Virus record (IMG/VR): IMGVR_UViG_3300028844_003721
Location: 1 to 38,638 of that record
Source of the DNA: a virus
Strand: one strand, 5' to 3'
Length of the DNA: 38,638 bases
The notes under the pieces were generated by a model. The model ran no database searches. It was not told where the DNA came from and saw only the letters and a program-made list of their open reading frames with translations. Positions 5,536 through 38,078 of this stretch are shown here, piece by piece. Within the stretch, counting starts at the first letter, position 1, and the number at the start of each line of letters is the position of its first letter. A program made the translations under genes and the position numbers.

Positions 5536-5546
5536 TAGATTTTGAT

Positions 5547-5554
5547 TATAAATA
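5547..5554 (+). promoter_or_regulatory. T4-type late promoter box TATAAATA
   Basis: A perfect TATAAATA sits in the gap between the fibre-like gene and the gp8-like gene. The expected start, about 13 bases from the first T, falls near 5560, just at the purine-rich AGAGGAAT that serves as ribosome binding site for the ATG at 5570. The leader would therefore be very short, with the binding site at the 5' end of the transcript. Confidence 0.75.
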
Positions 5555-5569
5555 TAAAGAGGAATAACA

Positions 5570-7066: not shown

Positions 7067-7082
7067 TAAAGGAAAATAAATT

Positions 7083-14204: not shown

Positions 14205-14208
14205 ATAG

Positions 14209-14216
14209 TATAAATA
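14209..14216 (+). promoter_or_regulatory. T4-type late promoter box TATAAATA
   Basis: A perfect TATAAATA lies four bases after the stop of the fibre-like gene. The expected start is near 14222, giving a leader of about 50 bases before the ATG at 14272, longer than for other promoters in this window. The leader contains GGTAC (14227-14231) and GTACC (14247-14251), a possible weak 5-bp hairpin, and ends with a GGAG binding site at 14263-14266. Confidence 0.7.
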
Positions 14217-14271
14217 AGTAAAGAGAGGTACTTACTGAAAGACGTGGTACCAGATAAAAAATGGAGAAATT

Positions 14272-22345: not shown

Positions 22346-22662
22346 CTATTATCAAATTTAGTAAAAAATAATTTATTAAATGCTATTAGTAATTGTTCCT
22401 TTGCTAATGTTTTAAATCTTGTTTGTTTAAATAAAAAGTCTTCTCTTTCATAAGCCTTTTCTATAAGATACTCGTAAATATCTTCATTGTGTTTTTCTAC
22501 TAATGCTCTATCCAAAATTATATCATCACCAAACAACCACTTTGATCTCTTTACAAATTTAAGCAACCTTTGAGGTATCTTATCTGTTATATCAATCATA
22601 TTATTGTTATCATCTACATAACAAAAACTAGTGACATTTGGACTTATAATTATTTCATTCAT
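22342..22662 (-). CDS. Unknown small protein, 106 residues
   Basis: This protein begins 'MNEIIISPNVTSFCYVDDNN' and continues with an acidic/hydrophobic segment ('DITDKIPQRLLKFVKRSKWL') and a helical, charged second half ('IYEYLIEKAYEREDFLFKQT'). It overlaps the aminotransferase stop and the radical SAM start by four bases each, so it is translated as part of the chain and is probably real. No family was recognised. Its place between an aminotransferase and a radical SAM gene would fit a small partner or substrate-binding protein, but that is only a guess. Confidence 0.55.
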   Translation of the reverse strand: MNEIIISPNVTSFCYVDDNNNMIDITDKIPQRLLKFVKRSKWLFGDDIILDRALVEKHNEDIYEYLIEKAYEREDFLFKQTRFKTLAKEQLLIAFNKLFFTKFDNR

Positions 22663-23714: not shown

Positions 23715-24525
23715 ATATTAACTCCGCTATTTTCTGTTGTCCTACTGCATTAGGGTGTCTATCTTGTTCAGATATTCTATATTCTTCAGTTAGATATTGT
23801 TCAATCATATATCCACCTAGTGACTCATCTGTAGGCCAACCTAAAAAATGTTCATTAAATTTATATTTACTTTTTTTCAAAGTGTCTATATATGCTTCTG
23901 TAAGCATATCACGTACAAATTCTCTTCCATATTTTTGCAATTCTGCAAATTGTTGAAACTTATCTAGTTTCATTTGTAAATCATTTTCTTCTAAACCTGA
24001 ATAATCTAAATTGTTTATTACTTCCCAAATATGTCCTTTGATTAAACTTATCATTTGAACTTGATTGTAAAAAAGTGCTTGATCGGCAACTCTAGTTTTT
24101 TGTTGTTCCATTAAATTTTGAAACGCATATTGGTATCTTATAGTTTTTCTAATCCAATATTGCAAATCGCCTTTTGCGTCTGTTCTAATATTGTGCCATC
24201 TTTTAACTTTTTTCACATTCTTAACATCTCCAAATTTTGCACCTCTCCACATATCTGTTTTTTCATAGTCACGTCTTGGTGCTGATGTCCATGCAGCTAT
24301 AACATAACCGACTTCATTAATATCAATTTCTGATAGCACATCTGATATAGAACTATAGATATATTCTTGTCCCATTCCTGACAAGCAAAGATTCATTGGT
24401 TCTAAATTCATCATCTCTGCTAATATTTCAGGCCATTTAGGCCATGTTGTATCCATCGCAGGATGAGGCATAGACATAAAATTAGGATCACCCCAACTAC
24501 AACCACTTACTATAAGTTTCTTCAT
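23698..24525 (-). CDS. SGNH/GDSL-like hydrolase
   Basis: This 275-residue protein begins 'MKKLIVSGCSWGDP', where S10 fits the nucleophile of block I, and 'LCLSGMGQEYIYSS' (about residues 46-59) fits the glycine of block II. 'QDRHPNAVGQQKIAE' near the C-terminus (D255, H257) is the usual block V with the catalytic acid and histidine. The block III asparagine is not obvious: 'VIAAWTSAPRRDY' stands where 'GxND' would be expected. Similar phage proteins lie in glycan clusters and may act as O-acetyl esterases or transferases on sugars. The start overlaps the SPASM-like gene by four bases (ATGA). Confidence 0.7.
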   Translation of the reverse strand: MKKLIVSGCSWGDPNFMSMPHPAMDTTWPKWPEILAEMMNLEPMNLCLSGMGQEYIYSSISDVLSEIDINEVGYVIAAWTSAPRRDYEKTDMWRGAKFGDVKNVKKVKRWHNIRTDAKGDLQYWIRKTIRYQYAFQNLMEQQKTRVADQALFYNQVQMISLIKGHIWEVINNLDYSGLEENDLQMKLDKFQQFAELQKYGREFVRDMLTEAYIDTLKKSKYKFNEHFLGWPTDESLGGYMIEQYLTEEYRISEQDRHPNAVGQQKIAELIYDRLG

Positions 24526-24896
24526 ACTTTATTTTTTACTATTGATTTACCTTTTTCATCTAAATGATGTTCTATTTTTATATTATCATCTGGTCTAATT
24601 AAACAATGATACAGACAATTTTTAGGCACTTTACTATGATCGCCTGCCTCACCGTCTTTCATAATTTGTTCAAACTCTCTCCATTCATCTGACAATACTA
24701 TTTCATCTATGTTTTCTGCCTCACTTACTTTACTTACTTTTAACATTTTTTGAAATAATGGTGTGCTTAATGTCCATTCTTGGTCGCACCAACAACAAGG
24801 TAATAGATGACCTCTATTACTCATAGCCATTTGCATTTTGCCGTTCATACATTGAGCAACAAATTTACCTTCTAGTTTATCTTTTTTATCTGACAT
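24522..24896 (-). CDS. Detached SPASM-like iron-sulphur protein
   Basis: This 124-residue protein has six cysteines arranged like the C-terminal SPASM/twitch part of radical SAM enzymes: C16, then 'GHLLPCCWCDQ' with C34, C35 and C37, and 'NCLYHC' with C94 and C98. It has no CxxxCxxC radical SAM core of its own. It begins inside the end of the preceding radical SAM gene (11-base overlap), which in turn lacks this domain. The pair therefore looks like a split radical SAM-SPASM enzyme. It may bind an auxiliary cluster and work as a complex with its neighbour. Confidence 0.65.
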   Translation of the reverse strand: MSDKKDKLEGKFVAQCMNGKMQMAMSNRGHLLPCCWCDQEWTLSTPLFQKMLKVSKVSEAENIDEIVLSDEWREFEQIMKDGEAGDHSKVPKNCLYHCLIRPDDNIKIEHHLDEKGKSIVKNKV

Positions 24897-25542
24897 TAGG
24901 TCTTACGTATCCTTTATATCCTAAATTATATTCTTTTGATTGAGGTCTTAATGGGTCATCTTCTCCCATCCACCTTGACGAGTGTAACACTATGAACATT
25001 AAACCCTCATCTATTGCCATTTGTTTCGCCTTTTCTAAATTGTGTTCATTGTAACTAAACACTATAAACTGCCAAGATGGCGTTTGTTTTAAGTGTTTCT
25101 TTGCTTCTAACATAACTTCATATAATTTTTTACCATCTTGGTTAACACGATACATGTTACTTTCTTCAGGTAAACCATCTATTGCAAATATCCATTTTGC
25201 TTTAGGGTGTGCCTTAAACGCTTGTACGTACCAACTTTTAGATTTGGCAGATGAGGCATTATGTACTGTAACTTGTATATCTTTATTATACAGGTACCCT
25301 AATATCTCAACAAACTTTGGATGATGTACAGGATCAGATAACTGACCACAAAAATTAAATGATGAAAAATAATCAGATAACTTTCTTATCTCGTCCATTG
25401 TAGCATCCCGACCATAAACTTTTCTGCCTTCAAGTGTAAAGTTAGTTTGTCTTTGACATCTCATACACTCTAAAGGACACCTATTACTTATGTCAATATT
25501 TATTCCTTTCTTTGATCTTCTATAAAATGCTATATCACTCAT
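24886..25542 (-). CDS. Radical SAM core protein without its own SPASM domain
   Basis: This 218-residue protein has the radical SAM cluster motif at C22, C26 and C29 ('NRCPLECMRCQR'). The SAM-binding position that is usually GGEP reads 'FCGQLSDPVHHP' (about residues 64-75), the variant seen in some phage and metagenomic members. 'AKWIFAIDGLPEESNMYRV' and 'SWQFIVFSYNEHNLEKAKQM' follow the barrel strand order of the fold. The protein stops where a C-terminal auxiliary domain would normally begin; that domain seems to be the next gene (24522-24896). The substrate is unknown. Confidence 0.75.
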   Translation of the reverse strand: MSDIAFYRRSKKGINIDISNRCPLECMRCQRQTNFTLEGRKVYGRDATMDEIRKLSDYFSSFNFCGQLSDPVHHPKFVEILGYLYNKDIQVTVHNASSAKSKSWYVQAFKAHPKAKWIFAIDGLPEESNMYRVNQDGKKLYEVMLEAKKHLKQTPSWQFIVFSYNEHNLEKAKQMAIDEGLMFIVLHSSRWMGEDDPLRPQSKEYNLGYKGYVRPNVR

Positions 25543-26402
25543 CTTAAATGTTTTAGTAAATTTTCTATTTTATCTTTTTGTTCAGTTAAACATTTTGCAG
25601 GTCTTTTCCAATATACAGGTCCACCATCTTTAATAGATTTATCTCTTAAATAAATCACTTCTTTTCCTAACCATTTACATTCTTGTATAATTCTAGGTGC
25701 AGGATCAAAGTTAGGTTTAGTGTAAACATATGTGTCAAATAAACCTAATAGATTTTTAACAGGCACGAATACGTGATTATGTTTTTGACTTATGTACTTA
25801 TCTTTGTATGCTATGATACCATGTGACGTATAATTTTTTATATGTTTTTCTACTTCTCTATAATATGTTTTATTTGTTCCTAAAAATAGATATTTAAATT
25901 GTATGTTATCTACTACAGGTTTGTATATACTAAAGTTTATTATCTTTTCAAATTGTTCGCCTACACCATTTACATATACCTCATGGTCGCATAAGTCAAT
26001 TACTTCTTTGGGTTCATAAAAATCTAGTGCGATAGGATATTCTTTAATGTGATTTTCTGAATATACAGATATGAGTTTACCACTAAATAATTGATGTAAT
26101 GTAAATTTTTGTTCTTCGGTATAACTGTTGTAATCAAGGTATGCAAGTGTCAACATACTTCTACCCATAATTAAAGATACATCATCTGACCGTGGCATAT
26201 AGTCATTAAAGACTATGTTTTCAAACTTTGTATAACACTCATTTATGGCGTCTATGTAATCTTGTATTATGTGTTTTTTATTCGGTATGATAATCAGTTT
26301 GGCACTTATACCTAGGTCGTTGAGAAAACAACAATATTCATAACTGTAATGAAACAGACCATCACCTGGTTTACTTGTACATACTATATTTACATTTTTC
26401 AT
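25539..26402 (-). CDS. GT-B-like putative glycosyltransferase, first gene of the minus cluster
   Basis: This is a 287-residue protein starting 'MKNVNIVCTSKPGDGLFHYS', with an alpha/beta N-terminal segment suggesting a Rossmann-like domain, and a C-terminal segment 'FDPAPRIIQECKWLGKEVIY' (about residues 232-251) that resembles the donor-binding 'E..a.G.pvI' region of GT-B glycosyltransferases. The two-domain pattern is plausible but short for the fold, so the assignment is moderate. It is the promoter-proximal gene of the minus cluster and its ATG is only about 20 bases from a near-consensus late box on the minus strand. No Shine-Dalgarno sequence is visible before the ATG. Confidence 0.5.
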   Translation of the reverse strand: MKNVNIVCTSKPGDGLFHYSYEYCCFLNDLGISAKLIIIPNKKHIIQDYIDAINECYTKFENIVFNDYMPRSDDVSLIMGRSMLTLAYLDYNSYTEEQKFTLHQLFSGKLISVYSENHIKEYPIALDFYEPKEVIDLCDHEVYVNGVGEQFEKIINFSIYKPVVDNIQFKYLFLGTNKTYYREVEKHIKNYTSHGIIAYKDKYISQKHNHVFVPVKNLLGLFDTYVYTKPNFDPAPRIIQECKWLGKEVIYLRDKSIKDGGPVYWKRPAKCLTEQKDKIENLLKHLR

Positions 26403-26424: not shown

Positions 26425-26432
26425 TATAAATA
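26425..26432 (+). promoter_or_regulatory. T4-type late promoter box TATAAATA
   Basis: A perfect box lies in the 68-base divergent gap between the minus cluster and the ten-gene plus run. The expected start near 26438 gives a purine-rich leader of about 33 bases with the direct repeat AGAGTAGAGTAGAGAG and an AAAGGA binding site before the ATG at 26471. It is the most likely promoter for the genes up to the transport trio. Confidence 0.75.
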
Positions 26433-26470: not shown

Positions 26471-28321
26471 ATGAAAAAGGTATATTTTACTCAAATAAAC
26501 AATCTAATTGCTGACGCAACATTCTTACCATTAAGCGTTTGTTACGTATGGGAATATTGTAAGACACAGGTAACAGGTTGGGAACTAGGCGGTATCTTGT
26601 TTGAAAGAGAAACCGTAGATGAATATTTAAAGAAGATTGTTAATCCTGACATTTTAGCATTATCAACATATGTGTGGAACTGGGACATAACTTGTGAGTT
26701 AGCACGAGCAGTCAGAAAGAAATATCCTAATTGTAAAATAGTAATGGGTGGACCACAAGTACCATTCAAACAAAGTTGGTTAGAAGACAATACTGACCTA
26801 TGCGATATTATAGTTACATATGCAGGTGAAAGAGCATTTGCAGAAATACTAAAAGGTAACTACACGTACCCAGGCGTAATGACAAAAGAATCATATAAGC
26901 CACCTAGACCAGATAAAGAAATAAACGATATACCAAGTCCTTATTTAAGTGGACTAATGGATAGTCTTGTACAACCTGGTAAAAAATATAGTGCCATCAT
27001 AGAAACTAATAGAGGTTGTCCATATAGTTGTACATTCTGTGACCAACAAGATTTATATTACAATAAGATCGCTATGTTTGATTACGATAGAGTAATAGGT
27101 GAGATAGATTGGATTGTAGAAAATAAAATTGAGTTTTTATTCTTTGGCGATAGTAATCTAGGTATGTTTAATAGAGATGTTGACTTTTTTAGATACATCG
27201 CTAAACGTAGAAATGAAACTGGTTATCCTAGACAGATAGATTATACTACAGCAAAACAACAACCAAAACGTATTGTAGAGTTAGGTGAAATACTTAACAA
27301 AGAAGCAAAGATGAGGCGTGGTGTTACAATTGCTTTACAAAGTATGAATCCTAAAACATTAAAAGCAATCAAAAGAATGAATCTTGCAAATGAAAAATTA
27401 GAACAAATTGTTAGCGACTATAACAATGCAGGCGTTGAAAGTTATTGTGAGTTAATTGTAGGTTTGCCTGAAGAAACATTAGATACATGGATTGAAGGTA
27501 TAGGTAAGATACTAGAATTAGGAAGTGACCATGCCTTGTTAGTACACCCTTTAAGTATTGTGCCTAATACTCCTTTTTCTGATCCTGAATATAAAAACAA
27601 ATTCGGATACAAATATGCAAAGACACGAGCACCTGCAGGTGGTAATACCTATCCTAAAGATAGTAATGGTGAAAGTGATTATGTTGCATATGAAACTAAT
27701 AGTTTTAGTACACAAGATTATATTGATATGTATTTTTTTGCTAAAGGTCTTGTTATACCACATCACTATCATGGCGTTAGTCAAGTTGCAGCTACATATT
27801 TAAACCGAAAACACAATGTACCATTTATAGAGTTTTATAAAAAACTATTTGAGCATAGTAGATATGGTAATGGCATATTAAATGAAGAATATATAAATCA
27901 CACAAATAGTCTAAAAGAAAGTTTGTTTGAAGGTAAAATATGGGGAAGAACTGTAGAGGGTGGTGATGATTTTCATTTATTTGATACTGGTGCCTCAGCT
28001 GCTTTCTTATATGCAAACATAGACAAGGTACATGAAGAAGTTATAGACATATGTAAGAAAGAATATAATGTTGATGTAAGAGAAGCGTGCCAGTTTAACA
28101 AACATCTCCTTGACACATATGAAAGAGATGATATAGAAAAACAATTTAACAAAAACTGGTATAGTTGGTTTTATGATAACAAACCACTAGTTTCAGTTAA
28201 CAATATCGTTTCTGTAACCGTTTATAAATATAAAGATATAGTAGACCACTCAAAGCATTTATTCTGGTGGGGAAGAAAAGCCAAGAGATGTTTTTTGAAA
28301 TCAAAGGAGATTACGTTATGA
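26471..28321 (+). CDS. Cobalamin-binding-type radical SAM enzyme
   Basis: This 616-residue protein has the B12-binding-domain plus radical SAM architecture. Residues about 1-135 form the Rossmann-like B12 domain ('NPDILALSTYVWNWDITCEL', 'CKIVMGGPQVPF', 'IIVTYAGERAF'). The radical SAM motif is C183, C187 and C190 in 'TNRGCPYSCTFCDQQ', followed by 'FLFFGDSNLGMF', 'VTIALQSMNPKTLKAIKRMN' and 'YCELIVGLPEETLDTWIEGI', the usual barrel segments. The DxHxxG motif for a lower axial histidine is absent, as in many enzymes of this class. Residues 400-616 form a long C-terminal region of unknown function. Such enzymes commonly methylate or rearrange unreactive carbons. It is the first gene of the plus run ending in the transport trio. 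Confidence 0.85.
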   Translation: MKKVYFTQINNLIADATFLPLSVCYVWEYCKTQVTGWELGGILFERETVDEYLKKIVNPDILALSTYVWNWDITCELARAVRKKYPNCKIVMGGPQVPFKQSWLEDNTDLCDIIVTYAGERAFAEILKGNYTYPGVMTKESYKPPRPDKEINDIPSPYLSGLMDSLVQPGKKYSAIIETNRGCPYSCTFCDQQDLYYNKIAMFDYDRVIGEIDWIVENKIEFLFFGDSNLGMFNRDVDFFRYIAKRRNETGYPRQIDYTTAKQQPKRIVELGEILNKEAKMRRGVTIALQSMNPKTLKAIKRMNLANEKLEQIVSDYNNAGVESYCELIVGLPEETLDTWIEGIGKILELGSDHALLVHPLSIVPNTPFSDPEYKNKFGYKYAKTRAPAGGNTYPKDSNGESDYVAYETNSFSTQDYIDMYFFAKGLVIPHHYHGVSQVAATYLNRKHNVPFIEFYKKLFEHSRYGNGILNEEYINHTNSLKESLFEGKIWGRTVEGGDDFHLFDTGASAAFLYANIDKVHEEVIDICKKEYNVDVREACQFNKHLLDTYERDDIEKQFNKNWYSWFYDNKPLVSVNNIVSVTVYKYKDIVDHSKHLFWWGRKAKRCFLKSKEITL

Positions 28322-28902
28322 TAAGAGTTGGCGATATAATACCAGATGTTAAAACTATGCACAAAGATAGTGCAGCCACAAACTGGTATTCTACACACGA
28401 ATTATTTAAAGATAAAAAGATATTACTAATAGGATTGCCTGGTGTATTTCTAGTTGAGTATGCAGCCACACATTTAAAAGCATACGACTTCTATTACAGC
28501 AAGATAAGAGACCTAGGTATTGATGAAGTATATTTTACAAGTGTTGATAATTGTTACGTACAAAACGCATATCACAAAACAGAAAATTTATCTTATTTAA
28601 AAAACTTACCTGACCCTAATGGTGATTGGGCCACATCTATAGGTATGTTAGAGAATATGAGCAAAGAAGGTTTAGGAAATTGTAGTCATAGATACGCCAT
28701 GATTATAGACAATTTAATTATGAAACATTGTAAGTATGAAGACTTTACACACAATCCTATGACGTGTTTTCAAGTATCAGACGCTGATACAATGATTAAG
28801 TATTTAGAAATTATACAAACAAATTATGAAAGGTTTAATGATGACGCCAGAGATAAGGTTGACGTCCTTGGAAGAAACAAGATCAGCACCGTATTGTCGT
28901 GA
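28318..28902 (+). CDS. Peroxiredoxin (Prx5-like) protein lacking the peroxidatic cysteine
   Basis: The start at 28318 is supported by AAAGGAGA seven bases upstream and an ATGA overlap with the preceding stop, giving 194 residues. The order of motifs follows the Prx5/type II peroxiredoxin family: 'IRVGDIIPDV' at the start, 'KILLIGLPGVF' (34-44), 'SKIRDLGIDEVYFTSVDNCY' (61-80), 'LPDPNGDWATSIGM' (97-110) and 'LGNCSHRYAMIIDN' (119-132). The peroxidatic motif, normally PGAFTPTC, reads PGVFLVEY: Y48 stands where the catalytic cysteine belongs and L45 replaces the threonine. The fold is probably kept but the usual peroxidase chemistry should be lost. Other cysteines (C79, C122, C137, C150) are not at that position. 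About 40 extra C-terminal residues follow the family domain. Confidence 0.75.
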   Translation: MIRVGDIIPDVKTMHKDSAATNWYSTHELFKDKKILLIGLPGVFLVEYAATHLKAYDFYYSKIRDLGIDEVYFTSVDNCYVQNAYHKTENLSYLKNLPDPNGDWATSIGMLENMSKEGLGNCSHRYAMIIDNLIMKHCKYEDFTHNPMTCFQVSDADTMIKYLEIIQTNYERFNDDARDKVDVLGRNKISTVLS

Positions 28903-29482
28903 GCTAAAAACTCTTTGGTACGATAGAGAATATCTATTAAATCATTTAGAGAGTATAGATCAAAAGAATTGGTATCTATTTGATTGTGGTCACATAAGAT
29001 GGACTGTACAAGAGGCATTTACTGCTAGAATGGAATGTAAAAACTATCCTTTTAGTGAGTTTCATTATGAGTTGATAAACCTTTTTACACCTGCAATATC
29101 TTTTGATACTGTACTGTACACACAAACAGCAATTGGTGGGGCACCACCACACCAAGATAGAAACAGACCTGCTGCTTTAAACTTTGCAATAAGAGGTGAG
29201 TTTAGCGATACAAGTCCTCAAGTCTTCTATGATAGTTTTGATAGAAGTACAGAAAAGTATAGAATGACATATGAAAAAAATGATATAACAAATGAATTTG
29301 CACCTTGGTTATTTAAAGGTCCTGAAATACATGGTGTAGAAAACAAGACAGAAAAAAATAGAATTATTATAACTTGTGCTTGGCGTCATAACAGTTATGA
29401 AGATATAGAAAAAAAATTACTAGATGGTACGTTAGTAAATTGGGAACAGAATGAAAAAAACAAAAGGATAAAATTTATATGA
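28838..29482 (+). CDS. 2-oxoglutarate/Fe(II) oxygenase-like protein (first of four)
   Basis: The start is taken at 28838, where GAAAGG lies a few bases upstream of paired ATG codons; the frame also contains an ATG at 28826. This gives 214 residues. The double-stranded beta-helix iron site is suggested by 'GAPPHQDRNRPAALNF' (H105 and D107) and 'GPEIHGVENKTEKNRIIITC' (H165, with R175 able to bind 2-oxoglutarate). It overlaps the peroxiredoxin-like gene by about 65 bases. The substrate is unknown; such small phage oxygenases are frequent in marine T4-like genomes. Confidence 0.65.
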   Translation: MMTPEIRLTSLEETRSAPYCRELKTLWYDREYLLNHLESIDQKNWYLFDCGHIRWTVQEAFTARMECKNYPFSEFHYELINLFTPAISFDTVLYTQTAIGGAPPHQDRNRPAALNFAIRGEFSDTSPQVFYDSFDRSTEKYRMTYEKNDITNEFAPWLFKGPEIHGVENKTEKNRIIITCAWRHNSYEDIEKKLLDGTLVNWEQNEKNKRIKFI

Positions 29483-30132
29483 GTAGTGTAGATAGAACAA
29501 ACAAAGCACTTTTAAGACTTTCTACTATGGGTGATTGGTTGCAAATGAAACAACACATCAATACAAGACAGATTATGAAAGACCTTGAGCCATACAAAGA
29601 CTCATGGAAACCATACAATTTAAGAAACCCAAATAACAGGTGGGGATTAAGTGTAACAAGTTTAGATGGTGGATTAAGTGGTATACCTGATTTAGATAGT
29701 TTACTACAATACAATAATATACACGGCACTAATATTACAAATCATCAAATAAAAGAATATACCGAAGTATATAAGAACTCACAAGAATTACAGAAACTCA
29801 TTGAACCATGGAAACCTTGGTTAGGGAGATGTCACTTTTTAAAACTAAACACAGGTGGTTATTTTCCTGAACACTATGATGTAAACAAATTAGAATATGG
29901 TTATGATGAAATAAGATTTATTGCTTTCATTAACAGGTGTGATAAAAAAGATTTAAAATTTATATATGAGGATACAGTTAGAGATGTTAAAGATGGTCAA
30001 ATGTTTTTCTTTAACGCAAATAAAAGACATTCAGTTTTTAGTACATCGGACGAAATTATTATGTTAGTATTCTGTATGAAATTTGATGAACATTTATTTG
30101 AAAGATTAATAGAACAATATAGGTTTGCATAA
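29479..30132 (+). CDS. 2-oxoglutarate/Fe(II) oxygenase-like protein, aspartyl hydroxylase style (second of four)
   Basis: This 217-residue protein has the segment 'FLKLNTGGYFPEHYDVNK' (H132 and D134), 'EIRFIAFINRC', then 'DGQMFFFNANKRHSVFSTSD' with H184. The spacing fits an HxD...H iron site of the aspartyl/asparaginyl beta-hydroxylase-like group. An arginine at the expected 2-oxoglutarate position (about ten residues after H184) is not evident, so co-substrate binding is uncertain. The start overlaps the previous stop by four bases (ATGA) and the end overlaps the next start by one base. Confidence 0.65.
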   Translation: MSSVDRTNKALLRLSTMGDWLQMKQHINTRQIMKDLEPYKDSWKPYNLRNPNNRWGLSVTSLDGGLSGIPDLDSLLQYNNIHGTNITNHQIKEYTEVYKNSQELQKLIEPWKPWLGRCHFLKLNTGGYFPEHYDVNKLEYGYDEIRFIAFINRCDKKDLKFIYEDTVRDVKDGQMFFFNANKRHSVFSTSDEIIMLVFCMKFDEHLFERLIEQYRFA

Positions 30133-30683
30133 TGTGGTATCATAAAAAATTTAATTTACAATACGATAAAAACGTTTTCAATGAGATAATTGAATATGCT
30201 AAAACAGCAACATGGAAACAAGGGTACGATAAAAATAATGCCCTTTGGAACGTTGAAGAACTTCCTTTAGACCCTAAGGAATTTCCTATACTAAATGAAT
30301 TATACGAAGGTCTAAATGCAGAATTTAAAAGTCCATCTTTTTTTATTAGTAATGTGAAACCTGGTGGGTTAGCAAACCATATTGACCACAGGAAGTGGGG
30401 AAATTTAGGTATACCTTTATTAGGGAACTTTGAAAAAACACCTCAGTTTTTTTACGATCAATTTAATCATCCTGTAGAGTCATTTATAGTTGATAGACCT
30501 GTTATATTCAATACACGTATGTTACATGCTGTGCCTAGAGATATAGAAGACACAGGTCCTCGTTGGGTATTGATGATGAATTTATATGAGTGGATTGATA
30601 GGTTGTTTGAAAAGATTGATAACAAAACTATATGGACAGATACAAAGAATTTTAAAGTAGATTTAGTGAGTCTTGGAGAATAA
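30132..30683 (+). CDS. 2-oxoglutarate/Fe(II) oxygenase-like protein (third of four)
   Basis: This 183-residue protein contains 'NVKPGGLANHIDHRKWGNLG' with H83 and D85, and 'PVIFNTRMLHAVPRDIEDTG' followed by 'PRWVLMMNLYEW', where H132 and R144 complete the usual H-x-D...H...R layout with the expected 12-residue spacing. It is short, consisting essentially of the core barrel. The ATG overlaps the previous stop by one base (TAATG), a coupling arrangement seen elsewhere in this run. The substrate is unknown. Confidence 0.7.
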   Translation: MWYHKKFNLQYDKNVFNEIIEYAKTATWKQGYDKNNALWNVEELPLDPKEFPILNELYEGLNAEFKSPSFFISNVKPGGLANHIDHRKWGNLGIPLLGNFEKTPQFFYDQFNHPVESFIVDRPVIFNTRMLHAVPRDIEDTGPRWVLMMNLYEWIDRLFEKIDNKTIWTDTKNFKVDLVSLGE

Positions 30684-30684
30684 A

Positions 30685-31590
30685 ATGATAAACAAATTAA
30701 TATGGAATAAAGTAGAAGAATTATTTTACTGGAACATATCAGTAGATAGCCCTATTAATCAATTACCTTTTACAATGGATTTTATTCTTACTTGTCAAAA
30801 AGAATTTTCTATGACAGTAAGAGATAAAGAATACCCTATACATCTAGGTGGTATAATGGATTGGCATGATAAAACAATGGGCGATTTCGTAAAAGAAATA
30901 GATAAACAATATCAAAGTAATTACTTTGTAGCAGAAAATGGTACAAGTACAACAGGTGTCGTAGGTGAAATAAAAGATGTAAACGATAAACCTATTACTA
31001 ACAAATGGAATATAAGAGGTGACGCTCTTGTTAAAAGATTACAAGCAATGCAAAAAGAAAGACCTAATCTAACAATATTAGATATGGGTTGTGGTGTAAA
31101 CGAATATAAGAAACACTTAAACAATGTTACAGGTGTTGACCCTTACAGAAAAGAAGCAGATATATTGTGTAGTCAAGCAGATTTTAAACCTGCTAACGAT
31201 ATAAAATGGGATGTAATTATATGTTTTGGTCCTCAAAACTGGTATACGTATGATGAACAATATAGAAACTTTATGACGTTAAAGAATTGTTTAGCACCTA
31301 GTGGTTTACTATTATGGTCACATGTTCATAATTACTATAAAGTATTTCAACCAGATCACCCACATGGTCACACTTGGATACATGGTGATTTAGAACATGC
31401 ACAAAAGAATAGTGCATTTTACTTTTATGATAGAAACTGGAAGTACACATGGTACTTTAACTGGACTGAACACGCTGTAAATACACTTGCAGGTCATGTA
31501 GGTTTAAAAATAAACAAAGTAGATTATGACCATTGTAATTTATACAGACCACCTATGTACAGAATATTTACGGAGATGACACATGGTTGA
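30685..31590 (+). CDS. Class I SAM-dependent methyltransferase
   Basis: The start at 30685 is chosen because GGAG (30675-30678) lies six bases upstream; an in-frame TTG at 30673 lies before that site. This gives 301 residues. Motif I is 'LTILDMGCGVNEYKKHL' (DMGCGVN at residues 133-139), followed by 'VTGVDPYRKEAD' (D152) and 'DVIICFGPQNWYTYDEQ' at the motif IV position. The first 110 residues form an extra N-terminal region of unknown role. 'HDHPHGH'-like residues after position 215 ('PDHPHGHTWIHGD') form a histidine-rich patch that may bind a metal. It sits between the third and fourth oxygenase genes. Confidence 0.75.
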   Translation: MINKLIWNKVEELFYWNISVDSPINQLPFTMDFILTCQKEFSMTVRDKEYPIHLGGIMDWHDKTMGDFVKEIDKQYQSNYFVAENGTSTTGVVGEIKDVNDKPITNKWNIRGDALVKRLQAMQKERPNLTILDMGCGVNEYKKHLNNVTGVDPYRKEADILCSQADFKPANDIKWDVIICFGPQNWYTYDEQYRNFMTLKNCLAPSGLLLWSHVHNYYKVFQPDHPHGHTWIHGDLEHAQKNSAFYFYDRNWKYTWYFNWTEHAVNTLAGHVGLKINKVDYDHCNLYRPPMYRIFTEMTHG

Positions 31591-31602
31591 ACAAGGTAAC
31601 TT

Positions 31603-31623
31603 CTTTGTTTACAAATAACAAAG
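31603..31623. other. Short inverted repeat in an intergenic gap
   Basis: CTTTGTT (31603-31609) and AACAAAG (31617-31623) are perfect inverted arms around a 7-base loop, in the 49-base gap between the methyltransferase and the fourth oxygenase. CGTTTTGGAG follows, and the GGAG there is the binding site of the next gene. The stem is AT-rich and weak. It may modulate translation or be chance. Confidence 0.3.
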
Positions 31624-31639
31624 CGTTTTGGAGTATGGC

Positions 31640-32296
31640 ATGAACAGGTGGGATATAACTGTTAAACAAAGTAACTATGATTTCAATCCTTTTAGAGAAA
31701 GTGATCATGGTAAATATTTTAAAACAGTAACAAACATTTATGAGGACTGGTCAAAGGAATTAGAATATGCAAACAAGCAACAATATGATTTCTATTGGCC
31801 TAGTCCTGTAAAACCAGGTGGCGATCATTTTGATTATGAGTATGAAAATAAACTAGTAGAAGATTGGGGTATACCTAAAGACTTTGTAATCTACAGAATG
31901 TGGACTGCAACAAAGAAAGAGTGTCCTATATTATGTGGTCTAGCAGACAGGTTAGGTTTAGAAGACGCACAAGTTAATATACAAACACAAACTACAGGTA
32001 TGATGTTACATTTACATATTGATAGTTTAACAGGTTTAAGAAAAGAAAGAAAAGATCAATCATCAAGCAGAGCAACTGATCCTGAATGGGGTAGAGTTTT
32101 TGTTATGTTAGAAGATTGGAAACCAGGACATATTATTCAATTCGGGAATACATATGTACCACCATGGAAAGCAGGTGATGTAATATGGTTTGATTGGGCA
32201 AACATACCACATAGTACTGCTAATACAGGACCATGGCCTAGAACAATTGCAAAAATAACAGGTAAACAAACGTCTAAATATAAGAAACTATTATAG
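31640..32296 (+). CDS. 2-oxoglutarate/Fe(II) oxygenase-like protein (fourth of four)
   Basis: The start at 31640 is supported by GGAG at 31630-31633, six bases upstream, giving 218 residues beginning 'MNRWDITVKQSNYDFNPFRE'. 'TTGMMLHLHIDSLTGLRK' carries H126 and D128, and 'WFDWANIPHSTANTGPWPRT' carries H191 and R201, so all four residues of the iron and 2-oxoglutarate site are present. 'GRVFVMLEDWKPGHIIQFGN' between them fits the barrel strands and is typical of phage aspartyl-hydroxylase-like oxygenases. It is the last enzyme before the receptor gene, which starts nine bases after its stop. Confidence 0.75.
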   Translation: MNRWDITVKQSNYDFNPFRESDHGKYFKTVTNIYEDWSKELEYANKQQYDFYWPSPVKPGGDHFDYEYENKLVEDWGIPKDFVIYRMWTATKKECPILCGLADRLGLEDAQVNIQTQTTGMMLHLHIDSLTGLRKERKDQSSSRATDPEWGRVFVMLEDWKPGHIIQFGNTYVPPWKAGDVIWFDWANIPHSTANTGPWPRTIAKITGKQTSKYKKLL

Positions 32297-32305
32297 GATT
32301 AAATT

Positions 32306-33934
32306 ATGAGATTACTGATTATATTATTACTTTTATTTGTATCAACAAAAACTTTAGCAGAAAACAATTGTAAATGGCATGATGATATTCCTTGTATTAC
32401 AATATATCCAAAATTAAACAATTCAAACGCATTAGGTGATAGAATAACACCTACAACAACAATTACAAAAACAGAAATAAGAGAACACAATCTAATTGAT
32501 TTACCAAGTGTTTTAAATTACGTATCAACACTAGACGTTACACAATCAGGACCAAAAGGACAAACTGGTTCTGTATTTTTAAGAGGTACAAACTCTAATC
32601 ACACTTTAGTTTTATTGAATGGTATGCCTATTAATGACTCGTCAACACCTACAGGTGTATTTGACGTTGGACAAGACTTTATGTTTAACGTTGTACAAGT
32701 AGATGTATATAAAGGTGGTGCAGGTGCTCATTGGGGTGCAGACGCTGTGGGTGGTGCAATTAATTTAAGAACAACCGTAGATTACGATAAAAGATATAAT
32801 GTATCAGGTAATGGTAATGACAAAACAATAAGTGGTAATTATTATACAAGATTAAATGATTTTGATATATCTGTTTCAGCAGGTGAACATAAATCAAAAA
32901 ACGTTTCTGCCTTATCAGGTGCTGACGAAAAAGATGGTACAAAAAATCAAACTATAGGTGTCAATGTAAGTAAATGGTATGATATGATACATTGGCAAAC
33001 ATCTTGGTTTACAAGAAATACGTTTACAGATATTGATGGTCATAGTCTTGCTATACAAGATGACAAATGGTCTGATAATAGTTTTTATGCTTTTCAAACA
33101 GGTATAGATTACTTTAATAATAGTTTAACTTTTCATACACACGAATATGAAAGAATTTATGATGACGCTAATTATGATAGTCAAAATTGGTCATTAAGAG
33201 GTGTACATCAAAGACAAAATTGGGGAATAGGTTTTGATTATAAACATGATGAAAATTATGGTAAATCTGCATGGTCAGAAAACACAGGCAGAAATCATGG
33301 CATGGGATACTTCTTTAATTTTTCATACAATATATTATCATATCATCATAGATTTGATGAAGACCATGAAACTTATAAAATAGGATTCTTACAAGAATTA
33401 GACGATGGTTTAAGTATAAGTGGTAGTCACTCAACGTCATATAAAAATAAAACATTATACAGCGATGTAGTATATGGTGACTCACAAGAGGTTACATTAA
33501 CTAAAAATAACTTTGCTACTACTATCTTTCAAAATGATATAGGTGATCTGAATACAAATGGTGTAGAGATGTCATATAATACAGGTGATTGGAAACTTTT
33601 TGCAAGTAATTTAACAAGTAAAACAAAAGATGTATTATCATTAAGAAGACCAGAATGGTCACTTGGTTTTATACACAATAAAAAGTTTGAAAATAATTTT
33701 ACTTTAACTACTAACTACAAATACAAAGGTAAACATTTAGATATACATAACTCAAACTGGTCTACAATATCAATGCCAGAAACACATTTAGTTGATTTAA
33801 ATCTAGGTTATAACTATCATGGATTTAATTTTGGTGTAAGTCTAAACAATCTATTAAATGAGAAGTATGAATCACCTCATGGTTTCTCACAAGAAGGTAG
33901 AAAGTTTACTTTAGGTTTTAACAAATCATTTTAA
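32306..33934 (+). CDS. TonB-dependent outer-membrane receptor (BtuB/CirA-like plug and barrel)
   Basis: This 542-residue protein has an N-terminal signal peptide (hydrophobic residues 2-12, probable cleavage after A19). A plug domain spans about residues 42-160, with 'TKTEIREHNLIDLPSVLNYV', 'GSVFLRGTNSNHTLVLLNGM' (88-107), 'VQVDVYKGGAGAHWGADAVG' (130-149) and 'GGAINLRT'. These match the plug pattern of vitamin B12, siderophore and catecholate receptors. The rest alternates aromatic and polar residues as expected of beta-barrel strands and ends with phenylalanine ('RKFTLGFNKSF'), the usual outer-membrane assembly signal. The barrel is short (about 380 residues, against 450 or more in BtuB). 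I could not find a convincing TonB box before the plug. The next gene starts within its stop codon. Confidence 0.9.
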   Translation: MRLLIILLLLFVSTKTLAENNCKWHDDIPCITIYPKLNNSNALGDRITPTTTITKTEIREHNLIDLPSVLNYVSTLDVTQSGPKGQTGSVFLRGTNSNHTLVLLNGMPINDSSTPTGVFDVGQDFMFNVVQVDVYKGGAGAHWGADAVGGAINLRTTVDYDKRYNVSGNGNDKTISGNYYTRLNDFDISVSAGEHKSKNVSALSGADEKDGTKNQTIGVNVSKWYDMIHWQTSWFTRNTFTDIDGHSLAIQDDKWSDNSFYAFQTGIDYFNNSLTFHTHEYERIYDDANYDSQNWSLRGVHQRQNWGIGFDYKHDENYGKSAWSENTGRNHGMGYFFNFSYNILSYHHRFDEDHETYKIGFLQELDDGLSISGSHSTSYKNKTLYSDVVYGDSQEVTLTKNNFATTIFQNDIGDLNTNGVEMSYNTGDWKLFASNLTSKTKDVLSLRRPEWSLGFIHNKKFENNFTLTTNYKYKGKHLDIHNSNWSTISMPETHLVDLNLGYNYHGFNFGVSLNNLLNEKYESPHGFSQEGRKFTLGFNKSF

Positions 33935-35220
33935 TGTACGATACAATATTTTGGGCTGTAATAGGAACTTTAAGTGGTGTCATCTTTGGTGTGATACCAG
34001 GTGCAGGACCTTTTGTTGCAACTGCAACTTTATATCCTTTCTTAACGCATATAGAACCTGTCAATGTTATGATGTATTACGTCACGGTATTGATTGCAAC
34101 AAATTATACAAATAGTGTTACTGCTATTTTGTATGGTATACCTGGTGACGCCTCAGCAATGATGACTGCAAGAAATGGTCATAGATTATTCTTAAAGGGC
34201 TTTGGTAATCTAGCAGTTGCTACTAATGCCGTTAGTAGTACAATAGGTGTTGTATTTGCTTTTACTGTTTTTATTTTTGTATTGCCTTGGATTATAGAAG
34301 TTTTTAGATTTTATAATAGTGTACTACAAACAGTTATTGTTGCAGCTGCAATTATAATGATTACACTATTGACAAAACAAAATAAATTGTTTACAATAGT
34401 ACTGTTTTTATTTGGAGGCATGATTGCAAAAATAGGTATAGACCCTATAACGTTTGACAGTTTTTTGACTTTCAATAACTCATATCTCGCAATTGGGATA
34501 CCTTTTGCAAGTGTGATGATAGGATTATACATAGTGCCAGAACTAACAAAGTTAAATAGTTTTAAAGTAGGAGTACCTAAACGTATAAATACTTTTACAG
34601 TTGGTAAAGATACAACTACGCCTACACTCATAGGAAGTTTTGTAGGATTTTGGTGTGGTCTTATACCAGGTGTAACAAATATTCTTGGCAGTTATGCAAG
34701 TGCAAACATTGTTAAAAGGTTTTTCAAAAAACCTGTACTTAAAAGCATAGCAGCCGCAGAGGCAGCAAATAATAGTGGCGCCTTATCATCACTATTGCCT
34801 TTGCTTATACTAGCGATACCCATTACGGGAAGTGAAGTTTTGATTTATTATATTATGTTAGAAGATGGTTTCGTTTTCAACGCTCAAAATACAGTCAAAC
34901 ATTTAGAAAGTATAATTTATATTATACCCTTTGTTACTGCATTTTGTTTGGGGTTAAGCTGGTACGGTTTCAATCTGTTAGGTAAGATTGCATATCTCTA
35001 TAAACAATATAGAACAATTGCAAACATCTTACTTCTCTCAATAATTAGCATTGCAAGTATATCAATATTCGCCATACGTGAATGGATGATTATCTGTATA
35101 TTTGTTTTGTCTATAATCGGTTTCTTAATTAGACGCTGGGACACTAGTCCTATTATTTACGGATACTTTCTAAGCGATCTATTTTATGAAAATTTAATTA
35201 GAACATTAATAATCTTGTAG
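33934..35220 (+). CDS. tctA: TctA-type inner-membrane permease (tripartite tricarboxylate transporter family)
   Basis: This 428-residue hydrophobic protein has the paired TctA signatures: 'GVIFGVIPGAGPFVATATL' (about residues 15-33), and 'ILYGIPGDASAMMTARNGHR' (65-84), which corresponds to the IPGxxxxxxTxxDGyp segment. A second copy of the first motif occurs at 'GFWCGLIPGVTNILGSYASA', as expected from the internal duplication of the family. Many transmembrane helices are evident. Typical TctA proteins are about 500 residues, so this is shortened, mainly after the second repeat. The start overlaps the receptor stop by one base (TAATG). Family members import tricarboxylates or other organic acids together with TctB and TctC. 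No TctB-like gene is present. Confidence 0.85.
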   Translation: MYDTIFWAVIGTLSGVIFGVIPGAGPFVATATLYPFLTHIEPVNVMMYYVTVLIATNYTNSVTAILYGIPGDASAMMTARNGHRLFLKGFGNLAVATNAVSSTIGVVFAFTVFIFVLPWIIEVFRFYNSVLQTVIVAAAIIMITLLTKQNKLFTIVLFLFGGMIAKIGIDPITFDSFLTFNNSYLAIGIPFASVMIGLYIVPELTKLNSFKVGVPKRINTFTVGKDTTTPTLIGSFVGFWCGLIPGVTNILGSYASANIVKRFFKKPVLKSIAAAEAANNSGALSSLLPLLILAIPITGSEVLIYYIMLEDGFVFNAQNTVKHLESIIYIIPFVTAFCLGLSWYGFNLLGKIAYLYKQYRTIANILLLSIISIASISIFAIREWMIICIFVLSIIGFLIRRWDTSPIIYGYFLSDLFYENLIRTLIIL

Positions 35221-35228
35221 GAGAAAAA

Positions 35229-36005
35229 ATGAAAAAAATAATGTTAATATTAATGAGTATGTTATTCAGTACAATGGCATACGCACAAGTGCAAATTATC
35301 AACCCAGGTTCACAAGAAGGTGTCTTCAGACAAATTCTTTCTACAATAGGTGATACAACTGAACATAACTTTGTTCAGGCAGATAATCCAGTTACTGCAT
35401 ACACTTATATAGAAGGTAAAGGTACACAACCTATCTTAACGATATGGTCTAGTGAATGGCCAGGTGACGATAGTTTAAAAAGTCCGAAAGTATCTAAAGA
35501 TAATATTGTTGCTTTAATGACATATGAAACTCTTATGTGTAGTAGAGCATACAATTCACTTGAAGATATGAGTGGACAAACGGTTAAGATTGCGACATGG
35601 GGATCAGAACCAGTTGCAAAATTTTTAAAAAATTTAGGTGCAAAATATAATGTAAATTTTGTAGTTGTACCTTATTCTGGCAGCGGAAGTACTACTAAAG
35701 GTTATGTTGGCAAAGACGCCGATACTGTCTTTACAATTACTTCACGTCAAGCCGCATTAGAGGAAGATGGATCTAAATGTATTGCCTTTTCAGAAAAAGG
35801 TGAATTAGGTTTTAGATTTGTTGACGCAATCATCACCATTAATGCTAACTACGCCTTAACAAATGAATTACGTTCTGCTGTAACAAACCTCTCTACTACT
35901 ACCGAGTGGAATAGTAAATTCAAAGGCTCTGTAACTTATGTTGGAAATGGTTCTAATCAAACTATAGAAATGTTTGAAGAGGCTGTTGCTAACTTTAGTA
36001 AGTAA
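35229..36005 (+). CDS. TctC-like (Bug family) periplasmic solute-binding protein, short
   Basis: This 258-residue protein has a clear signal peptide (MKKIMLILMSMLFSTMAYAQ, cleavage after A19). 'VKIATWGSEPVAKFLKNLGA' (119-138) and 'VVPYSGSGSTTKGYVGKDAD' (146-165) resemble the TctC/Bug segments that recognise a carboxylate through 'vpYkG' and follow with 'gG.vd'. 'CSRAYNSLEDMSGQTVKIAT' fits the 'dLva.ak..P' stretch. Typical members have about 300-325 residues, so the protein is shortened. An AGGAG site overlaps the TctA stop (TAGGAGAAAAAATG). The order receptor-TctA-TctC supports a role in uptake of one compound. Assignment to TctC rests on neighbour and motif together. Confidence 0.7.
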   Translation: MKKIMLILMSMLFSTMAYAQVQIINPGSQEGVFRQILSTIGDTTEHNFVQADNPVTAYTYIEGKGTQPILTIWSSEWPGDDSLKSPKVSKDNIVALMTYETLMCSRAYNSLEDMSGQTVKIATWGSEPVAKFLKNLGAKYNVNFVVVPYSGSGSTTKGYVGKDADTVFTITSRQAALEEDGSKCIAFSEKGELGFRFVDAIITINANYALTNELRSAVTNLSTTTEWNSKFKGSVTYVGNGSNQTIEMFEEAVANFSK

Positions 36006-37323
36006 TACAATTATGTAAGAGCTGGTTGGCATCCTTATAGTTGTCAAACAGCTCTTGCTGATTTCTACCAGTTATATTAAGATTTACGTTAAACTTCTTA
36101 TTTTGTAGATTTTGAAATTCAGGTATTGTCATACCGACTTCTATTTTTCTATTCAGATAATTCATATATTGTTCAACAACTTCTATATTTTTTATATCTT
36201 TAATTACACCAGGTTTCAATTGAGTACAACCCCATAGTAGGTGAGTTGTTATCTCTGGTTCTTTATTGTTACCTATATTGTTGAATATATTATTACCAGG
36301 TAGTTTATCTAATATATTCATAAACTGACCTATACGTGTGTTAAAATCTATTGCAATTAATTTTTTACCTATTATATGAAATTCAGGTCCTGCAAAGTAC
36401 ATCTCTTTTACTTTTAATTCATCAACCACAGTTTGTACAAAATTATGTATTACTTTTTGTTGTTCTTCATCTACATCACTTGCAGGTAAAGACCATACTG
36501 CTAAATTTTTTGTAATATCACTTTTCTTACTAATTGAATGTTGTTCCATAGGATTTTTATTAAAGTCTAGTACATCACCATATTTAACTTGGGCAGTTCT
36601 AGCATAAAACAAACTATCTATTTTGCCATCTTTGACATAACCAAAAGTACCTATAGATGGTTCTTCAGACCAATAATATTCTTGTGCCATAATCTTACAA
36701 GGCATATAATTAAAATTTTCATTTTGTATACCTTGTTTGTTTATCTCAAAAAAATCATTATGATAATTTAGTTTACTTAAATGATCTAAAAAATGATGTT
36801 TATTGTTCCATCTTCTATACTCTATAATAGGTGTATTCTGATCTGATTTAGGAAAAAAAGAATTACTACCAGTACCAATGTCAGGTTTTGTAAAAAACTC
36901 TTTGCCTTCAAATATATCTAATTGACTATGAAAAGTAGGTGTAATACTTTTAGGCACATGATGGTTTAGACCTATTGATCTAAGGAAATCATCCATCTTT
37001 TGTTTATTTGAAAAGACTTCAGCTGCGAAGGCAGATATATTCTGTATGTCATAATAACTTTCTAATTGTGCTTGAATAGGAAATAAATTTTCTGATACAC
37101 AAAACACTTTATCACAAGATATAATTTGTTTTGTGATTTCTATTATATCAAACTTCTTTGATACAACTAAATCGTCTATGTGTTTTATGAAAGGTTTGTA
37201 GCGATCGCCTGACTTGTTTGGCACCACATCACAAACTAATGTGATGTGGTTATTTAAATTCGCTGTGATAAGACCTTCGGTCTTGTTAAGACTACGCTTG
37301 TGTGATAATATAATTACATTCAT
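35995..37323 (-). CDS. ATP-grasp enzyme
   Basis: This is a 442-residue protein with the ATP-grasp order: a pre-ATP-grasp N-terminal domain (residues 1-100), 'NKQKMDDFLRSIGL' (106-119, with K107), 'EFFTKPDIGTGSNSFFPK' (142-159; K146 and the flexible glycine-rich loop), 'MAQEYYWSEEPSIGTFGYVK' (212-231; adenine-linker region) and 'GPEFHIIGKKLIAIDFNTRI' (312-331; metal-binding E314, D326, N328). These enzymes join a carboxylate to an amine or thiol with ATP, as in amino-acid and peptide ligases. The C-terminal 100 residues are additional. It ends against the TctC-like gene with an 11-base overlap. Substrate unknown; its neighbourhood with transport genes could be coincidental. Confidence 0.8.
   Translation of the reverse strand: MNVIILSHKRSLNKTEGLITANLNNHITLVCDVVPNKSGDRYKPFIKHIDDLVVSKKFDIIEITKQIISCDKVFCVSENLFPIQAQLESYYDIQNISAFAAEVFSNKQKMDDFLRSIGLNHHVPKSITPTFHSQLDIFEGKEFFTKPDIGTGSNSFFPKSDQNTPIIEYRRWNNKHHFLDHLSKLNYHNDFFEINKQGIQNENFNYMPCKIMAQEYYWSEEPSIGTFGYVKDGKIDSLFYARTAQVKYGDVLDFNKNPMEQHSISKKSDITKNLAVWSLPASDVDEEQQKVIHNFVQTVVDELKVKEMYFAGPEFHIIGKKLIAIDFNTRIGQFMNILDKLPGNNIFNNIGNNKEPEITTHLLWGCTQLKPGVIKDIKNIEVVEQYMNYLNRKIEVGMTIPEFQNLQNKKFNVNLNITGRNQQELFDNYKDANQLLHNCITY
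36017..36056. repeat. Inverted repeat just past the TctC-like stop
   Basis: AAGAGCTG (36017-36024) and CAGCTCTT (36049-36056) are perfect 8-base arms, extended by TTG/CAA after one mismatch, enclosing a loop of 16 bases between the inner arms. It lies within the ATP-grasp gene's 3' end and 12 bases after the TctC-like stop codon. No T-run follows on the plus strand, so it is not a standard intrinsic terminator, though it could help end or protect the plus-strand transcript. Confidence 0.35.
37223..37250. repeat. Perfect 11-bp inverted repeat inside the ATP-grasp gene
   Basis: ACCACATCACA (37223-37233) and TGTGATGTGGT (37240-37250) are perfect arms around the 6-base loop AACTAA. It encodes about codons 25-33 of the ATP-grasp protein ('NHITLVCDVV'). 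A second perfect hairpin, AAGACC-TTC-GGTCTT, lies at 37270-37284, and a further AAGAC arm follows at 37288-37292. Confidence 0.6.
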
Positions 37324-38070: not shown

Positions 38071-38078
38071 TATTTATA
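38071..38078 (-). promoter_or_regulatory. T4-type late promoter box on the minus strand
   Basis: Read on the minus strand the sequence is TATAAATA. The expected start near 38065 gives a 5' leader of about 23 bases before the ATG at 38042, with GAGG as binding site. It forms one half of the palindrome 38071-38088. Confidence 0.75.

Follow-up and report, generated by a model that had tools for sequence, protein, structure and literature searches.

A BtuB-like receptor gene beside a conserved TctA/TctC, ATP-grasp and oxygenase-like gene cassette in T4-like phages

Why a marine T4-like phage should encode an outer membrane receptor, an inner membrane permease and a periplasmic binding protein side by side is the question raised by the IMG/VR virus fragment IMGVR_UViG_3300028844_003721. 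The window analyzed here is the whole of this 38,638-bp fragment (GC content, 32.1%), which contains genes for T4-type baseplate wedge proteins. A preliminary description had proposed that the three genes install one full import route. Our results favor instead, as the probable reading, two modules lying side by side in a late-type operon, namely, a cobamide receptor and a cassette for carboxylate import and ligation. The three genes are as follows.

32306-33934, + strand: BtuB-like TonB-dependent receptor, type 1 (542 amino acids; PF07715)
33934-35220, + strand: TctA permease (428 amino acids; PF01970)
35229-36005, + strand: TctC/Bug-type periplasmic binding protein (258 amino acids; predicted fold)

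The open reading frame (ORF) coordinates reproduce exactly the layout first described, with a one-base overlap between the receptor and TctA ORFs and eight bases between those of TctA and the TctC-like protein. No internal stops occur in the trio copies compared, and ratios of nonsynonymous to synonymous substitution (dN/dS) relative to the window are 0.10 to 0.29 for the receptor, TctA and TctC where dS is computable (one receptor pair is saturated). The genes exist as described, are intact and phage-borne, and evolve under purifying selection; the earlier view of them as intact phage genes for import-type proteins is supported.

A conserved cassette and an exchangeable receptor

The permease had been recognized correctly: PF01970 matches it over the full length (model positions 1 to 418 of 423) at 201 bits against a cut-off of 28.9. 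Two further genes of the window belong to its conserved surroundings.

29479-30132, + strand: o27, 2-oxoglutarate (2OG)-Fe(II) oxygenase-like (HxD...H triad, sub-threshold Pfam matches, synteny)
35995-37323, - strand: o34, RimK-like ATP-grasp ligase, convergent with tctC (profile-profile match, synteny)

Co-occurrence was counted in deeper scans comprising 70 TctA loci, the best 80 of 86 TctC-like matches and the best 80 of 167 receptor matches, so that closer relatives are overrepresented in the receptor counts. The TctA loci formed 23 clusters at 90% identity, and the 18 in which the sequence continues for 4 kb or more past tctA were used; among the five dropped, L128 has neither partner, L122 has the ATP-grasp gene only, and L121, L184 and L188 have both. 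A TctC-like gene lies within 6 kb of TctA in 18/18 clusters, as does an ATP-grasp gene (18/18), and TctA of the phages bearing the cassette is down to 52% identical to that of the window. For o27, 21 clusters with at least 800 nucleotides upstream were counted (2 of 23 dropped): in 13 of these a homologue is the gene immediately before tctA, and 20 have one no more than 8 kb upstream or 4 kb downstream; the exception, L015, offers only 5 kb of upstream sequence. The usual order in distant phages is o27, TctA, ATP-grasp and then a convergent TctC-like gene. The window's clade departs from this in having o27 at a greater distance upstream and tctC ahead of a convergent ATP-grasp gene. Where dS is computable, dN/dS relative to the window is 0.10 to 0.25 for TctA, TctC, ATP-grasp and o27, and 0.10 to 0.19 for TctA alone. 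TctA, the TctC-like protein, the ATP-grasp ligase and the 2OG-oxygenase-like protein together make up a cassette that is conserved among phages.

The o34 family has no credible ATP-grasp match in Pfam (3 of 33 members match PF02655 weakly, with a best E value of 0.019, and the window protein not at all). Profile-profile comparison with 15 bacterial ATP-grasp proteins gave a probability of 96.5 and an E value of 9e-10 over 273 columns, against E values of at least 0.3 for four unrelated control profiles and 0.74 for the single outlier sequence L300. K146, D326, N328 and R330 (lysine and D-x-N-x-R motifs) are invariant in all 33 members, and the bacterial matches are RimK-like by eye. In o27, an alignment of 21 sequences has an invariant H132-x-D134 ... 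H184 triad, and the Pfam matches, to PF05118 (AspH; 15.5 bits) and Cupin_2 (20.8 bits), are both below the cut-off.

The receptor, by comparison, is found within 3 kb of TctA in just 4 of the 18 clusters, and 20 of 23 receptor clusters have no TctA within that distance. Two receptor types, about 30% identical to each other, alternate at the same place beside similar TctA proteins; TctA next to type 2 is 93 to 97% identical in eight loci of the first IMG/VR scan and 88% and 79% identical in the other two, L014 and L015, respectively. No TonB plug occurs anywhere in the genome of the relative G002, where a DUF6580 protein alone (PF20221, 144 bits) occupies the receptor's place, and DUF6580 relatives are encoded immediately ahead of type-2 receptors. 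The receptor forms a module of its own that is exchangeable with respect to TctA/TctC.

Could the cassette be a plain feeding device? TctA family transporters import tri- and dicarboxylates, and TctA and TctC with a host TctB might import tricarboxylic acid cycle acids, the ATP-grasp and oxygenase genes being unrelated cargo. Such a reading, which concerns the cassette only and so overlaps with other readings of the receptor, draws support from the known substrates of the family and from the window's island rich in modification enzymes, but the ATP-grasp gene, present in every cluster across so wide a range of TctA identity, is too constant beside TctA to be random cargo. We consider plain feeding unlikely.

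Still less survives of a single continuous route, by which the receptor would bring in a ligand (e.g., a metal-organic acid complex) and TctC would pass it to TctA. The adjacency, shared direction and one-base overlap of the genes agree with it, as does the joint presence of all three at 16 of 18 TctA loci in the first IMG/VR scan. The co-occurrence counts nevertheless lead us to reject the trio as one unit, since no receptor is found within 3 kb in 14 of 18 TctA clusters and, conversely, no TctA within that distance in 20 of 23 receptor clusters. Further, receptor types swap, the constant partners of TctA/TctC are the ATP-grasp and o27 genes, and no TctB was found beside TctA in the window. 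Relatives of the receptor are under B12-riboswitch control, and the TctC/Bug structures whose ligands are named hold terephthalate, oxoadipate or malate, which are far smaller than cobamides. A single route is quite improbable, and we prefer the two-module reading.

The third gene was first described as TctC-like, which is right for the predicted fold but not for family membership by Pfam score. Its product has no Pfam family above the cut-off and no PF03401 match at an E value of ≤0.1, none of 8 related records matches PF03401 at ≤1, and PDB searches with 8-row and 27-row profiles gave nothing credible. An AlphaFold2 model built from 8 sequences was too poor (predicted local distance difference test score, pLDDT, of 37) and was replaced by one from 27 diverse phage homologues (pLDDT, 77.6; predicted template modeling score, pTM, 0.75). 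The best Foldseek match of this model is Bug27 (E value, 8.4e-8). Rows 1 to 11 of VIA-align 2 are all TctC/Bug-type proteins (TphC, TBP, Bug27, TctC, 2dvz, Rpa4515, MatC and BugD), with Z scores from 15.2 for TphC (root mean square deviation, 3.4 over 233 residues) to 12.2 for BugD over 232 to 237 residues, and the next row steps down to 10.7 and to other binding proteins; TphC, TBP, Rpa4515, MatC and 2dvz we take to be TctC/Bug-type, and the others are so named in their titles. The three best viral matches in BFVD are uncultured Caudovirales proteins, two of them annotated as PBP2_Bug_TTT and one as a Bordetella uptake protein. The TctC identity is therefore based on the predicted fold together with a weaker profile-profile match to 15 bacterial TctC proteins (E value, 4e-4, with a probability of only 35%; controls, 0.19 to 0.75).

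Cobalamin and the receptor

The preliminary description had identified a TonB-dependent receptor with a signal peptide and a terminal phenylalanine. The TonB plug (PF07715, 63 bits against a cut-off of 23.9) and the terminal residue (the protein ends ...NKSF) are present, and the signal peptides are visible by eye only. The window's receptor (type 1, about 542 amino acids) has TIGR01779 (TonB-B12) as its best NCBIfam model at 84.3 bits, with the next non-BtuB model at 38.6; type 2 (about 595 amino acids) reaches 179.2 bits with the best BtuB models and 64 with the next family. BtuB is also first in a phmmer search of the PDB with the window protein (3rgn; E value, 1e-19).

A corrinoid had been one of several ligands suggested for the whole trio; it is now the best-supported candidate, for the receptor only, given BtuB as the best-scoring family and the riboswitches upstream of receptor relatives. 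Rfam identified AdoCbl-II cobalamin riboswitches in three of eight loci (seven of which hold a receptor). A search of 50 of 91 listed receptor loci, with 40 tctA records lacking an identified receptor as controls (39 viral and one, G013, a metagenome-assembled genome, or MAG), found the riboswitch (RF01689) in 14 of the 50 receptor records, at 69.6 to 85.1 bits against a gathering threshold of 36.5, and in none of the 40 controls. The 14 records fall in 6 of 23 receptor clusters (90% identity). Twelve of the riboswitches end 21 to 82 nucleotides before the receptor's first in-frame ATG, whereas in L266 and L267 a DUF6580-receptor pair follows, and the riboswitch ends 95 and 78 nucleotides, respectively, before its DUF6580 ORF. 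Their identity rests on the covariance model, not on fold stability, one folded example being not unusually stable (z, -0.88). The contigs are viral: L266, on a 242,646-bp record, has a terminase large subunit gene about 3.9 kb upstream of the receptor, and L042-type contigs have tail and island genes in common with the window. At L228:9615-11311, next to a receptor under riboswitch control, are genes for a thymidylate synthase of ThyX type (PF02511) and for a binding protein of the PBP_like_2 family (PF12849).

The co-directional run that holds the trio (26471-36005) opens with a gene of B12-associated type.

26471-28321, + strand: B12-binding radical S-adenosylmethionine (SAM) protein, KedN5-like, a candidate methylcobalamin-dependent C-methyltransferase (Pfam, NCBIfam)

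Both of its domains score above their Pfam cut-offs (PF04055, 47.2 bits against 29.5; PF02310, 37.1 against 32.1), and its best NCBIfam model, NF033712, scores 180.6 bits, below the cut-off of 700. Counting one representative per cluster, 14 of 23 receptor clusters have a radical-SAM gene of B12 type no more than 5 kb from the receptor (15 of 23 if any member counts), compared with 3 of 19 receptor-less TctA representatives within 6 kb. Two B12-binding proteins each are encoded by G001 and G003, and 18 of 23 receptor clusters have one or more B12 markers, counted as a riboswitch, a radical-SAM gene or DUF6580. Ribonucleotide reductase large subunits, which would be a possible B12 sink if of the B12-dependent class, occur in G001, G002 and G011.

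BtuB also serves phages as a receptor. The BtuB-like barrel might accordingly be a surface decoy or a means of superinfection exclusion, occupying TonB or the surface ligands of competitors (phage or colicin), with uptake incidental. The TonB-dependent receptor FhuA is described in a published abstract as a phage receptor, and type swapping would suit arms-race turnover. However, cobalamin riboswitch control in relatives and neighbors of B12-dependent type point to nutrient sensing, and dN/dS is 0.11 to 0.34 where computable. A decoy role is very doubtful.

Several observations weigh against the two-module reading or its link to B12. (i) Neither receptor type reaches the BtuB equivalog cut-off (TIGR01779/NF007926) of 599.7. 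(ii) Rfam finds no riboswitch in the window at E values up to 0.5, nor in any trio-bearing record among the 50 searched. (iii) The radical-SAM contrast between receptor-bearing and receptor-less clusters is suggestive only, because the profile sequences came mostly from receptor-bearing loci and 5 of the 19 representatives have less than 2.2 kb upstream, and in the L042-type radical-SAM gene found beside many receptors the B12-binding domain is below the Pfam cut-off. (iv) G002, G009 and G010 encode B12-binding proteins and no TonB plug, so the receptor is not obligatory. (v) Five of 23 receptor clusters have no B12 marker; DUF6580 is itself a marker that we infer, and among the open-access matches listed, no paper links it with cobalamin. 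(vi) A crude hydropathy scan of ORFs of at least 40 amino acids within 5 kb of TctA found no TctB in the window, only TctA having two or more transmembrane segments. Elsewhere, small membrane ORFs near TctA include those of DUF6580, a few others and, in four loci, ORFs of 76 to 78 amino acids with two to three segments; TctB could come from the host or from elsewhere in the phage genome.

With these points considered, the two modules may work as follows. (i) In the conserved module, the periplasmic TctC/Bug-type protein would bind a carboxylated compound, which TctA would then carry across the inner membrane into the cytoplasm, where the RimK-like ATP-grasp enzyme would ligate it to an acceptor through an amide or ester bond and the oxygenase-like o27 would modify the substrate or product of the ligation. 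(ii) In the exchangeable module, the BtuB-like receptor would move a cobamide across the outer membrane with host TonB; the inner membrane step would fall to host BtuCDF or, in some relatives, to the phage DUF6580 protein, and the cobamide would feed one or more phage B12-binding radical-SAM methyltransferases. Both modules may serve one biosynthetic island. A fuller version is possible, and we offer it tentatively: a private phage cobamide line (riboswitch-sensed BtuB, with DUF6580 as the cobamide carrier of the inner membrane) would power the radical-SAM methyltransferases and be coupled to a phage-only TctA/TctC/ATP-grasp/2OG-oxygenase system that takes up a carboxylate from the host or the environment and incorporates it by ligation into a molecule made by the phage.

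Phage origin and gene context

The first IMG/VR scans found 18 TctA, 20 TctC-like and 16 receptor loci. Conservation of the trio in other phage contigs, a check raised by the preliminary description, is borne out by its presence in the window's order at 16 of the 18 TctA loci; of the other two, L016 lacks the receptor and L018 begins inside tctA. The 16 include two long T4-like contigs (165,693 and 128,678 bp) with a gp23 gene, and the receptor occurs without the other trio genes in further contexts (L042 to L047 and L049 to L051). All three large relatives (G001, G002 and G003) carry gp23; G001 (165,693 bp) and G002 (170,818 bp), both read end to end, have a GC content of 32.6% each. That the trio results from a chimeric assembly, or is host DNA caught up in a viral contig, can be set aside as practically negligible, because its synteny recurs in large gp23-bearing and many other contigs; its GC content (31.8%) is close to that of the window, and the bacterial MAG that also holds relatives includes a contig, L076, with gp32-, UvsX- and gp59-like ORFs by eye.

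That MAG emerged from a scan of bacterial genome contigs for a donor. The TctC-like query matched nothing, and the same kind of scan with TctA found two phage-like contigs in one MAG: FZLS01000099 (L075) and FZLS01000023 (L076), binned as "Rhodobacteraceae bacterium Water_Bin34" and T4-like phage by eye. A TctC-like search of 398 genomes drawn from the phylum of this MAG (presumably Pseudomonadota) matched the MAG itself and no other (1 of 398), and there only in two phage-like contigs. Users of Water_Bin34 would count phage genes as bacterial.

The isolates nearest to a 3-kb gp23 region are Pelagibacter phage Mosig, OM43 phage Melnitz and Pelagibacter phage HTVC008M, at 69 to 74% nucleotide identity over 49 to 67% of the query. 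Among the 50,697 phage records of INPHARED, TctA and the receptor match 6 to 8 records per search, all at less than 60% identity, which we judge to be fragments lacking annotation or bacterial DNA deposited under phage names; the TctC-like, ATP-grasp and DUF6580 proteins match none. Records that look bacterial to us are AGRM01000002, AGRM01000004, AFYI01000005, CAKLQH020000002 and CAKLQF020000003. Some bear Salmonella titles, with annotations of btuB and 16S rRNA in two and a TctA match in one; two 254-kb records named "Acinetobacter phage" have a btuB_1 annotation. Such records are a possible source of false claims of phage auxiliary metabolic genes (AMGs).

Expression late in infection, as first suggested, is plausible from motif placement. 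The motif TATAAATA, which we take to be the T4 late-promoter core, stands ahead of both gene runs.

26425-26432, + strand: T4-late-promoter-like site TATAAATA, 38 nucleotides before 26471, the head of run 26471-36005
38071-38078, - strand: late-promoter-like site TATAAATA, upstream of the minus-strand run 38042-35995 (o36, o35 and ATP-grasp)

The total in the window is at chance (9 against 8.86 expected), and the count alone is uninformative. Six of the nine sites, however, lie 8 to 80 nucleotides before a same-strand gene start (P = 9e-6 compared with all-A/T 8-mers), a position shared by 17 of the 29 sites of G001 and by 17 of the 30 of G002, and it is this placement that makes late expression of run 26471-36005 plausible.

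An island of small-molecule and glycan modification genes occupies positions 15240 to 26402, with nucleotide-sugar epimerase-like, Nol-like carbamoyltransferase, radical SAM and DegT aminotransferase genes and, below the Pfam cut-off, nitroreductase-like and methyltransferase-like genes. Within the run itself, o28 (30132-30683) belongs to a family of about 180 amino acids without a Pfam match; in L003 the family is seen at 1447-1980, 4532-5140 and 5124-5699, the same run in relatives holding two further copies, about 23 to 30% identical to the window's o28. A guess that o30 is a 2OG-type protein has no family support in Pfam.

Upstream of o27-tctA in L076 are two ORFs that by eye resemble a porin-like barrel and a permease-like membrane protein (5062-5862 and 6222-7187, both on the - strand), neither with a Pfam match; ORFs of similar size occur in L123, L125 and L127. 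L099 encodes, about 4 kb from TctA (13307-14278, - strand), an SbmA/BacA-like protein (PF05992, 379 bits), a mycobacterial relative of which imports B12. ARAGORN identified a permuted, two-piece transfer-messenger RNA with the tag DNHIDYRMAA in G002 (170.8 kb; L066:8618-8941) and a tRNA-Thr(tgt) in both G001 and G002.

Comparison with known systems

Seawater is poor in B12, which many marine bacteria are unable to synthesize. If the proposal is correct, infection would depend directly on the supply of the vitamin where viruses carry a B12 receptor, sense B12 by riboswitch and encode enzymes that require it. Among the open-access matches listed, the literature holds no phage BtuB with a riboswitch and no phage TctA-TctC-ATP-grasp set. 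The phage receptor resembles BtuB, its best relative by profile and in the PDB, and its phage relatives have a riboswitch directly upstream, as does bacterial btuB in passages of the Melnitz paper, where the riboswitch belongs to the bacterial host and not to the phage (PMC9004378), and of a Vibrio cholerae paper (PMC12409358). It differs in being phage encoded, in its length (542 amino acids, about 50 fewer than the 594-residue BtuB chains of the PDB), in lacking a riboswitch of its own within a long gene run and in scoring far below the equivalog cut-offs. Similarly, KedN5-family B12-dependent radical-SAM C-methyltransferases are the best NCBIfam relatives of the protein at 26471-28321, but its score is well short of the model's cut-off. 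The marine megaphage Mar_Mega_1 also encodes a TonB-dependent receptor, but of SusC type, with a proposed carbohydrate role and, in the passages concerned, no link to B12 (PMC9723777).

For the cassette, the closest viral precedent is tctA on SUP05 single-cell viral contigs, identified as a putative AMG from a domain hit and with its role stated as unknown (Roux et al. 2014; PMC4164917), a listing that recurs in a passage of a review (PMC6359870). Like the window, those contigs carry a tctA domain; unlike the present account, the passage names no TctC, ligase or receptor. In bacteria, tctABC and TonB-receptor genes are described under shared extracytoplasmic function (ECF) sigma factors (PMC3445524), and a TctA gene appears in a list of iron-regulator genes (PMC7600106), with no such trio in the passages of either paper. 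The cassette, which recurs across many uncultured phage contigs, resembles bacterial TctABC and Bug systems in pairing a TctA family membrane subunit with an adjacently encoded protein of predicted TctC/Bug fold. It differs from them in having no adjoining TctB, in a TctC-like protein outside PF03401 and in its constant ATP-grasp and 2OG-oxygenase-like partners, the former of which offers a concrete biochemical entry point to the cassette.

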